Made by a program: the position numbers and the translations under genes. Source: Thermostichus vulcanus str. 'Rupite' (GTDB lineage Bacteria > Cyanobacteriota > Cyanobacteriia > Thermostichales > Thermostichaceae). From it: a stretch of DNA of 64,000 bases. Under the pieces are notes generated by a model. The model saw only the letters and a list, made by a program, of their open reading frames with translations. It was not told the origin of the DNA and did no database searches. Shown here piece by piece: positions 54,803 through 57,923 of this stretch; position 1 is the first letter of the stretch, and each line of letters opens with the position of its first letter. The stretch covers positions 1-64,000 of the forward strand of contig NZ_JAFIRA010000007.1 in NCBI RefSeq assembly GCF_022848905.1, in the 5' to 3' direction.

Positions 54803-56038
54803 GTGACTGCAACTCTCTTTATCAATGCACATTTATTCGATCCTGCGCAGGGGTTGGATGAACTGGGTCAAGTACGGGTTGAGGAGGGCAAGATTGCTGC
54901 GATTGGCCCCCAGTTGCCTGTGGAGGGAGCGGATGTGGTGGATTTGAGGGGGCAGCTGCTCACCCCTGGTTGGATCGATATTCATACCCATGTTTTTACG
55001 GCGGTGGGGGATTTCTGTCTGCCTGCCGATGAGGTGGGGATCCAGTCTGGTGTCACCACGGTGGTGGATGCGGGGACTTCTGGCACTCTTACCTTCCCTG
55101 CCTTTCGAGAAACGGCGGCCCAAACTGCTCAAACGCGGGTCTACGCCCTCATCGATCCCTCGCTGCTCTACATTGCCACTTCTGATTTCATCGCTCACCG
55201 TCTTGGCTTTGCGGTGGATCCGAAAAATCAAGACTTGGATCGGGCCCGAGCGGTGATTGAGGCCCATCGGCAGGTGATTGTCGGCTTCAAGGCTCGCCCC
55301 ACCGTCAAGCTTGGAGAGATAGAATCTCCCACCCTCACTTCTGCCCTCATTCTGGCGGAGGAATATCAGCTACCCATTATGATCCACCTGGGTCGCTTCC
55401 CCATGGATGGGGTGTTGGATCCCTCGGATTTGTTGGATCGCCTGCGTCCGGGGGATATTGTCACCCATACCTATCAGCCCCGCTTTGGTCTCTTCGATGC
55501 GGAGGGATCCCTGTTGCCAGCAGCACGGCGGGCTTTGGAGCGAGGGGTTCTTCTGGATGTCGGCCACAGTGGCAGCGACTTTTCCTTCAATACGGCCCGC
55601 CTAGGTCTGGATCAAGGCATTCGCCCCCATACAATTTCCACCGATCTGAATATTTTCAACACGGAGATCGTGGTGGATTTGGCCACAACAATGAGCAAGT
55701 TTTTGGCCCTAGGCATGACCCTGGCGGAGGTGATCCAGGCTGTGACTGCAACAGCGGCGCGAGCGATTCAGAAAAGTGATCAACTGGGATCCCTGCAGGT
55801 GGGTCAGGAAGCGGATTTGACCATGGCCGAGTTGGTGGAAGAAGAGGCAGAATTGACGGATGGTCGAGGGGGTACCTTATCGGTCAACCAGATGCTGAAG
55901 GTGCGCGGCGTTTGTCGGGCCGGTCAGTTCCGGAAGATTGACCATACTCCCTATGCCCTCCCCCATTCAAAATCCGATTTAGAGATACGCCAGCTGGCCT
56001 GGGTCGGTGCAGAACATGTGAACGAGGAGATCCCCTAA
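54803..56038 (+). CDS. Amidohydrolase/deacetylase-type metallohydrolase
   Basis: A 411-residue amidohydrolase-superfamily enzyme. Metal-binding HTH follows DI (H61, H63), a conserved lysine sits in VGFKARPT (possibly carboxylated), and further ligands are expected in MIHLGR and DIVTHTY with the final aspartate in ISTDL. This is the 'amidohydrolase/deacetylase' group, whose substrates are uncertain; dihydroorotase itself is less likely. Three starts are close (54785, 54794, 54803), and GTG at 54803 fits the usual MTATL. The next gene overlaps its stop by one base. Confidence 0.85.
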   Translation: MTATLFINAHLFDPAQGLDELGQVRVEEGKIAAIGPQLPVEGADVVDLRGQLLTPGWIDIHTHVFTAVGDFCLPADEVGIQSGVTTVVDAGTSGTLTFPAFRETAAQTAQTRVYALIDPSLLYIATSDFIAHRLGFAVDPKNQDLDRARAVIEAHRQVIVGFKARPTVKLGEIESPTLTSALILAEEYQLPIMIHLGRFPMDGVLDPSDLLDRLRPGDIVTHTYQPRFGLFDAEGSLLPAARRALERGVLLDVGHSGSDFSFNTARLGLDQGIRPHTISTDLNIFNTEIVVDLATTMSKFLALGMTLAEVIQAVTATAARAIQKSDQLGSLQVGQEADLTMAELVEEEAELTDGRGGTLSVNQMLKVRGVCRAGQFRKIDHTPYALPHSKSDLEIRQLAWVGAEHVNEEIP

Positions 56039-56745
56039 TGACGGCAACTTTATCTCCAGAGTTATCTCCAGAGAATGTGTCTACGGCCTACACTTGGGCG
56101 GCCTTTGTGCAGGAAATTGAGTCGGAAATTGAAGCCCATCGGGATCGCGCCTTCACAGAAGCGCGGGAACAAGCCTTTGCCCCGCCCGAAACGGAGATTA
56201 AGCCCTGGCCGAAAGAGCGATTAATCGAGTGGCTCAGCTTTCAGACCTACTACGAATATCAGGCGATTTTGTTCATCAGCAGGTGGCTGCAGGATACGCC
56301 AGAAACCGATGCACTGGTGTTGCTTTGCCATCAAATTGAGGACGAAAGCAACCATTTCCGTTGGCTAAACCGCCATTTGGAGGCGATGGGGGCTTCTTTG
56401 CAGGATTGGCAGCCGCTCCCGGAGATCAAAGCCTGGGTGGAAACCTTCTATGGATCCCTGCCGGATACCATTTCCCGTTTGGCCGCGCACAACCTAGCCG
56501 GAGAATCGGGAGCCTGCCGCAGTTTTGCCAGTATTTTGCCGCATCTGCCGCCCGATTTGCAGAAGACGATGCGCAAAATTATGCCGGATGAGCAGTTTCA
56601 CCTGAATTTGGGACGACAAATCCTGAGCCGCTATTGCAAAACTGATGAGCAGAAGGCGCGTGCCCGCCATTATGCCTTGCAAGTGGCGGATTTGGAATCG
56701 CAGGCAATCACGGCTTTTAACCGCAAGTTGGCAGCTTTGGCCTAG
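56038..56745 (+). CDS. Ferritin-like di-iron protein
   Basis: A 235-residue helical protein. Four helices carry the classic di-iron carboxylate set: E73 (TYYEYQA), E103xxH106 (EDESNH), E156 (LAGESGA) and E185xxH188 (DEQFH). This pattern suits both iron storage-like and oxygen-activating enzymes; the protein is not a bacterioferritin or rubrerythrin by sequence. Its ATG overlaps the stop of the amidohydrolase gene by one base (TAATG), so the two are translationally coupled. The following small cysteine protein could be its electron donor. Confidence 0.75.
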   Translation: MTATLSPELSPENVSTAYTWAAFVQEIESEIEAHRDRAFTEAREQAFAPPETEIKPWPKERLIEWLSFQTYYEYQAILFISRWLQDTPETDALVLLCHQIEDESNHFRWLNRHLEAMGASLQDWQPLPEIKAWVETFYGSLPDTISRLAAHNLAGESGACRSFASILPHLPPDLQKTMRKIMPDEQFHLNLGRQILSRYCKTDEQKARARHYALQVADLESQAITAFNRKLAALA

Positions 56746-56780
56746 CGACCTAGACTGAGAGTGCAAACGGATCCCTGCCC

Positions 56781-57014
56781 ATGACAAGTTCTGCTGTCCG
56801 TCGTCGTCCGCCGGCCCGTCGCCCCGCCTACTGCTATTGCAGCGAAGTGGAACACGCGGAAATTCTCAGCCGCCAGCAACGGGATCCTTTGCCGTTTGAG
56901 GAAGCAATGCAGGTTCATTGCCAATCTGGGATCCGCTGTGGCCATTGCCTTTGGCCTTTGGAGCAGTTGTTCCGTCAGCAGGGCTGTTACATGGCCAGCC
57001 CCGACACGGAATAG
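56781..57014 (+). CDS. Small Bfd-like [2Fe-2S] protein candidate
   Basis: A 77-residue protein with an arginine/proline-rich start. Cysteines at C18 and C20 (CYC) and C53 and C56 (CGHC) are separated by 32 residues, almost the CXC-X31-CXXC arrangement of bacterioferritin-associated ferredoxin (Bfd), and G50-IRCGHC matches the Bfd turn. An extra C47 and C68 are present. It lies 35 bases after the di-iron gene. Iron-sulfur content is a prediction from spacing, and there is no clear ribosome site. Confidence 0.55.
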   Translation: MTSSAVRRRPPARRPAYCYCSEVEHAEILSRQQRDPLPFEEAMQVHCQSGIRCGHCLWPLEQLFRQQGCYMASPDTE

Positions 57015-57083
57015 ATGGACTAGGTGAATGGGGATGTCGGATAAACCTGTGGGCATGTGAGGATCCCAACCCCTCAGGTTGGC

Positions 57084-57923
57084 TCACTCCGGCAACCGCC
57101 CCAACCTCACCCCTCGATAGTAATAGGCCAAAATTTGTCGGTAATTCCACCCTTGGCGGGCCAATTCCTGTGCGCCCCACTGACTCATGCCAATGCCATG
57201 CCCATGCTTGGGATAAGGGCTGACATCCGGCAGGCTCATCAAATAAGGGATCCCGCTCACCCCAACCGTTTGGCCGCCACTACTGGCACTGTACATGGCG
57301 TTGACGAACTGCCCTCCGTAGACCATCACCACCCCACGAGTGGCCCAAGTCGCTTCCAGAGCTGCAACCGACCGCTGCGATAGGCCCCGATACACCTGGG
57401 AGCGAGTGTCGCTAAACACGTCAAACCAGCCGCGGGAATTGCGGTGATAAAGCACATAACTGCGGGCCGCCACCGCCTGCGCTTTCAGCGCCTCCGGGAG
57501 AAACCTAGCCCCCATTTCCGCATCCACCACGCTGGCCACGTAGTCTTCTAGATCTACGTAGTTGATGGCCATGAGCAAGTTATGACCGGTTAGGAGCACC
57601 TCGCCGGGGTACCAGTGGCCGTTCACCGCTACCATGCCACCCTCTTCAGGCTTGATAAACAAAACCGGAGAAACCACCCCCTGCAGGCGTACTCCTTGGG
57701 GGCTGGGTTGAGCCATAAACCCTTGCATCGGGGGCAGCTCCGCCAGGATCTCTCCCCGGCTATTGGTCAACTGGGCAGGCACAGACACCCCCACTACCAA
57801 AGGGGCACGGCTATTGGCCAGTTCCACCCGCACTGTTACCCCGGCCCAAGCCGCCTCTATCCACCCCAGCAGAGCGCCCAAAACCAGGGATCCCGTTAGC
57901 CCCACCCATCGCCATGCCTTCAT
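57084..57923 (-). CDS. SpoIID/LytB-domain protein
   Basis: A 279-residue exported protein. A signal peptide (about residues 7-27) is followed by the SpoIID domain: INYVDLEDYVASVVDAEMGA, then ALKAQAVAARSYVLYH, then YSASSGGQT and GHGIGMSQWGA. SpoIID in Bacillus is a lytic transglycosylase of sporulation; cyanobacteria do not sporulate, so a role in cell-wall remodelling is inferred. The active-site glutamate (DAEMG) is present. Converges with the Bfd-like gene. Confidence 0.88.
   Translation of the reverse strand: MKAWRWVGLTGSLVLGALLGWIEAAWAGVTVRVELANSRAPLVVGVSVPAQLTNSRGEILAELPPMQGFMAQPSPQGVRLQGVVSPVLFIKPEEGGMVAVNGHWYPGEVLLTGHNLLMAINYVDLEDYVASVVDAEMGARFLPEALKAQAVAARSYVLYHRNSRGWFDVFSDTRSQVYRGLSQRSVAALEATWATRGVVMVYGGQFVNAMYSASSGGQTVGVSGIPYLMSLPDVSPYPKHGHGIGMSQWGAQELARQGWNYRQILAYYYRGVRLGRLPE

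Follow-up and report, generated by a model that had tools for sequence, protein, structure and literature searches.

Cassette layout

The DNA analysed here, referred to as the window, is a 64,000-nucleotide stretch of the Thermostichus vulcanus str. 'Rupite' genome (contig NZ_JAFIRA010000007.1, positions 1 to 64,000 of the forward strand). Downstream of a divergent PEP carboxylase gene, the window carries a cassette (54803–57014, forward strand) encoding an amidohydrolase, a ferritin-like di-iron protein and a small cysteine-rich protein (Table 1). The amidohydrolase stop and the di-iron start share one base in the sequence TAATG, and a gap of 35 bases separates the di-iron stop from the start of the small gene. 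A check of the open reading frames recovered the three frames, their coordinates, the overlap and the gap as an earlier sequence-only reading had described them, and also its numbering of the di-iron ligands (E73, E103xxH106, E156, E185xxH188) and its CxC-X32-CxxC motif in the small protein (C18, C20, C53, C56). Purifying selection acts on each of the three genes, with dN/dS values of 0.05–0.09 between the window and its nearest relative. Together with the invariant ligands and the co-occurrence of the di-iron and small genes described below, this means that conservation of the cassette is more than chance.

Table 1 Genes of the cassette in the window
Feature	Position	Strand	Evidence
COG3964/NF006689-type amidohydrolase, 411 aa	54803..56038	+	ORF; GTG start 54803, stop ends 56038
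Ferritin-like di-iron protein, 235 aa	56038..56745	+	ORF, ATG start
Bfd-like small protein, 77 aa	56781..57014	+	ORF, ATG start

The di-iron and small genes occur together

Profile searches of 390 cyanobacterial genomes detected the di-iron gene in eight genomes and the small gene in nine, with both present in eight, all within only two families; the eight include one genome, G005, that carries only remnants. The hypergeometric probability of this overlap is 7e-16 over the class and 4.5e-5 inside family f16 (42 genomes, with the di-iron gene in four, the small gene in five and four in common), values to be read with the non-independence of the genomes in mind. The ninth genome, G281, carries the small gene alone, in an assembly of 700 contigs; 79 bases separate the start of the gene from a contig end, and no di-iron C-terminus is found in them. 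The sequence-only reading had treated all three genes as one unit; this is borne out almost perfectly for the di-iron and Bfd-like genes (8 genomes of 8 and 9), and less fully for the amidohydrolase, which adjoins the di-iron gene in six of the eight genomes, is decayed in G005 and is missing in G004. The amidohydrolase is thus the looser member of the cassette.

The order amidohydrolase, di-iron protein, small protein is found in five genomes (G000, G003, G105, G148 and G304), and in G105 and G148 the di-iron stop and the small-gene start overlap as ATGA. The di-iron and small genes are kept in the same genome even when they are unlinked, at other loci or on other contigs: topA and a SpoIID-like gene flank the small gene of G004 and G005, and that of G322 is located on another contig than the di-iron gene. 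The unlinked copy in G322 (L070 151–1367) lies about 285 bases downstream, on the same strand, of a gene for a CADD-family protein of the 4-aminobenzoate synthase type (279 bits, cut-off 200). At both of its locations in the genus (window 56781–57923; L028 8834–10250 and L029 8660–10079), the small gene adjoins a SpoIID-family gene, with a different paralogue and orientation at each, and recombination between SpoIID paralogues may have moved it.

Other neighbouring genes were considered as parts of the cassette and set aside. A gene for an MMSDH-type dehydrogenase lies divergently upstream in G105, G148 and G304, yet it is present in 28 of the 42 genomes of the family, most of which have no cassette. 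Genes for GlnT, guanine deaminase, a MetX-like hydrolase and a desaturase, found nearby in G105 and G148, are common only to those two sister genomes.

Decay of the cassette within the genus

Comparison of six genomes of the same genus revealed an intact cassette in two. G005 retains remnants of all three genes, with the small gene frameshifted; G002 has a broken first amidohydrolase only, and G001 has nothing of the cassette. In G004, the di-iron frame is open with H106 replaced by proline, the exception to ligand invariance in this protein; the gene (L004 1498–2208), in a genome that has no amidohydrolase, is otherwise well conserved, with 83% identity and a dN/dS of 0.08. Since the position beside PEP carboxylase is shared, these data suggest that the cassette was already present there in the common ancestor of the genus. 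In part of its own genus, the cassette is in decay. It is dispensable, as would fit a catabolic or specialised pathway.

The small protein resembles Bfd

The four cysteines of the CxC-X32-CxxC motif are invariant in eight homologues. In the same alignment two further cysteines, C47 and C69, which the sequence-only reading does not mention, are also invariant, giving a total of six, with the extra pair lying outside the Bfd pattern. Against the Fer2_BFD profile (PF04324), the small protein of the window scores 15.3 bits, below the Pfam cut-off of 26, and five of the eight members match this profile, with a best E-value of 0.001, again below the cut-off. An AlphaFold2 model of the protein (pLDDT 81) was compared with 350,542 chains, and the four best matches were all Pseudomonas Bfd, at E-values of only 0.34–0.88; superposition on the Bfd chain in 6e6r, 4e6k and 6e6s gave a TM-score of about 0.62 and an rmsd of 2.4, with weak E-values. 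A sequence search of the PDB with the small-protein profile returned nothing meaningful, and a search of plasmids returned no homologue. A classic Bfd was also sought in the genome of the window, where the sole Fer2_BFD match over the cut-off lies in a 307-codon frame, which is not a stand-alone Bfd.

The earlier description of a nearly Bfd-type arrangement therefore survives as a resemblance in profile and in fold, each of which falls below its formal threshold. With Bfd (PF04324; Pseudomonas aeruginosa 4e6k and 6e6r), the protein shares its small size, the CxC-X(31-32)-CxxC spacing, a di-iron protein as partner and probably a similar fold; it differs in its sub-threshold profile score, in the two extra invariant cysteines and in a partner that is not bacterioferritin. 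The known role of Bfd is to act as release factor for bacterioferritin; here, the genetic partner does not match the ferritin profile, and the ferritin-family genes of the genome are found on other contigs. The designation Bfd-like is well supported, while identity with Bfd proper is not established.

The two extra cysteines make zinc binding, or a role as a metal chaperone, the rival explanation that we take most seriously. In such a scenario, the small protein would use its six invariant cysteines, rather than four, as a metal or cofactor helper, either as a zinc or iron chaperone or as an assembly or activation factor for the di-iron site, a role in keeping with its strict partnership with the di-iron gene and with the appearance of a CopZ N-terminal domain at rank 8 of the fold search, among its weaker matches. 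However, the cysteines at the four Bfd positions are kept and the four best fold matches are Bfd, and we consider a helper role unlikely compared with that of a Bfd-like [2Fe-2S] protein.

One or two amidohydrolases accompany the pair

The amidohydrolase passes the NCBIfam model NF006689 (375.5 bits, cut-off 371) and has a binuclear metal site (H61xH63, K163, H195, H222 and D281), whose HxH, K, H, H and D ligands are invariant in an alignment of five members. It aligns over most of its length with the COG3964 amidohydrolases Atu3266 (PDB 2ogj) and EF0837 (2ics), with which it has the complete metal site in common, and the metal ligands are likewise aligned in the further PDB relatives 8wzy and 8je0. 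Atu3266 and EF0837 are nevertheless distant from the cassette enzyme, which differs from them in its linkage to a di-iron gene, and its substrate can therefore not be inferred from theirs; a literature search on the function of COG3964 gave one passing mention only.

A second amidohydrolase, of the TRZ/ATZ type, is encoded immediately downstream of the small gene in G304 and G281. In G134 and G313, both of which have no di-iron/small pair, its gene comes next after that of the first amidohydrolase. It is unlinked in the genome of the window, and orthologues at 72–82% identity are unlinked in G000, G003 and G322, with 72–74% in G000 and G003. G002 has a broken copy, and at this level of identity none was found in G001, G004, G005, G105 or G148. 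Within the genus of the window, an intact second amidohydrolase is found in precisely those genomes that have an intact cassette of three genes. Seen in this way, the two hydrolases form a module, to which the di-iron/Bfd-like unit is an optional addition. In G000 (contig 2; L111 7240–8637) and G003 (L112 7957–9327), both of them genomes with the intact cassette, the second amidohydrolase gene immediately follows what looks like a gene for aspartate-semialdehyde dehydrogenase.

The close subfamily of the first amidohydrolase occurs in four genomes that have no di-iron/small pair (G076, G134, G203 and G313), and G004 has the pair with no amidohydrolase, as would be expected if the locus comprised two independent units, with the pair forming one system and the amidohydrolase serving another pathway that has only the transcript in common with it. 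This is quite unlikely, given that the amidohydrolase and di-iron genes are adjacent and in the same order in six genomes from two families, in addition to the remnants in G005, and that within the genus they have been lost or have decayed together. Two of the pair-less subfamily members are themselves altered: the homologue in G203 has one in-frame stop, and in G076 (L101 5913–7139) the HxH motif reads NxY (DLNTYI), so that the metal motif is lost, yet the 408-codon frame is open.

The di-iron protein belongs to a separate family

A tblastn search of plasmids located relatives of the di-iron protein in Staphylococcus saccharolyticus, Priestia megaterium and an Abditibacteriota bacterium. In an alignment of the cyanobacterial, Firmicutes and Abditibacteriota sequences, extending down to 27% identity, all six candidate ligands are among the 28 invariant columns. 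The best-matching profile is DUF455 (PF04305), which the protein of the window matches at 25.2 bits, below the cut-off of 34.3, and which matches all seven members tested (best E-value 3.6e-7); the COQ7 profile comes next, weakly, and no curated profile cut-off is passed. The ferritin profile PF00210 gave no match at E-values up to 1, a PDB sequence search with the di-iron profile gave nothing meaningful, and a literature search on the function of DUF455 found nothing. DUF455, COQ7 and aldehyde-deformylating oxygenase have the same E/ExxH/E/ExxH ligand pattern, with similar spacing, but the cassette protein stands apart from DUF455/COQ7-type enzymes as a separate, unnamed family.

The AlphaFold2 model of the di-iron protein, based on a shallow alignment of seven sequences, is all-helical (pLDDT 75). 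Its best matches are TenA, PqqC and BesC folds, with the ferritin-like PaaA and 3ez0 ranking lower. Haem-oxygenase-like di-iron oxidases (HDOs) carry the motif HxxxD/ExxH on the third helix; position 181, four residues before E185, is isoleucine in all seven cyanobacterial members. Because this motif is absent, we rely more on the ligand pattern than on the TenA/PqqC-like model.

The two Firmicutes relatives (WP_115314165.1 and WP_108674900.1) are 39–41% identical over two thirds of the protein and keep the six ligands. Encoded on the plasmids of S. saccharolyticus and P. megaterium between methyltransferase and ketosynthase genes, they are found in clusters that also encode an acyl carrier protein, a benzoate-CoA-ligase-like enzyme, cupins and an arylformamidase-like protein. 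A cluster with ketosynthase, acyl carrier protein, CoA ligase and ferritin-like protein is common to both plasmids (L081 and L082). These ferritin-like proteins differ from the cassette protein in being shorter and in having other neighbours (ketosynthases, acyl carrier protein and methyltransferases), with no Bfd-like gene annotated beside them. Since these relatives reside in ketosynthase clusters, we infer that the cassette di-iron protein is an enzyme, probably an oxygenase, and not a store.

Discussion

The sequence-only reading had left two interpretations side by side, a compact oxidative pathway and a non-classical iron store with its own release factor. An iron store, in which the di-iron protein would oxidise and hold iron for release by the Bfd-like protein, as Bfd does for bacterioferritin, would accommodate the Bfd likeness of the small protein and the ferroxidase-like E/ExxH/E/ExxH site, but it is highly improbable in view of the missing PF00210 match, the three other genes, elsewhere in the genome on other contigs, that match this profile well, the relatives in biosynthetic clusters and the linkage to amidohydrolases, which has no evident role in iron storage. 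The location of the Firmicutes relatives in ketosynthase clusters and the three true ferritin-family genes in the genome favour an oxygenase with a dedicated ferredoxin, and with the co-occurrence of the pair and the Bfd likeness of the small protein, the oxidative pathway is the interpretation that we retain.

Taken as a whole, the cassette is, in our judgement and with moderate confidence, an O2-activating di-iron oxygenase or oxidase with a dedicated Bfd-like [2Fe-2S] donor and one or more amidohydrolases in the same pathway. The di-iron protein would represent a ferritin-like family so far undescribed and would activate O2 as an oxygenase (or as another kind of oxidase), and electrons would pass from some reductase through the Bfd-like protein to the di-iron site, where reduction of the diferric form would allow O2 binding and turnover. 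The amidohydrolase, along with the second, TRZ/ATZ-type enzyme in several relatives, would process the same small compound, either ahead of the oxidation or following it; this compound is probably nitrogen-containing (an amide, an ester or a heterocycle). A comparable arrangement is seen in the Dnf (Dirammox) system, which comprises the AurF-type di-iron oxygenase DnfA, the reductase DnfB and the hydrolase-like DnfC (PMC11160463). Dnf combines a di-iron oxygenase, its electron donor and a hydrolase within a single operon, as proposed here for the cassette; the likeness is an analogy only. Among the papers listed in our literature search, none described a Bfd-like donor of a di-iron oxygenase.

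We tentatively propose, at a little under even confidence, that the cassette represents a new di-iron oxygenase family with its own Bfd-type [2Fe-2S] protein, in a cyanobacterial pathway that has yet to be described and that includes one or two amidohydrolases. The di-iron family is unnamed, with members in cyanobacteria and in biosynthetic clusters of Firmicutes, and its few partners lend themselves to testing. Bfd would gain a wider role from a Bfd-like protein that accompanies a non-ferritin di-iron enzyme from genome to genome: if the proposal is true, Bfd proteins can donate electrons to catalytic reactions as well as for the release of iron.
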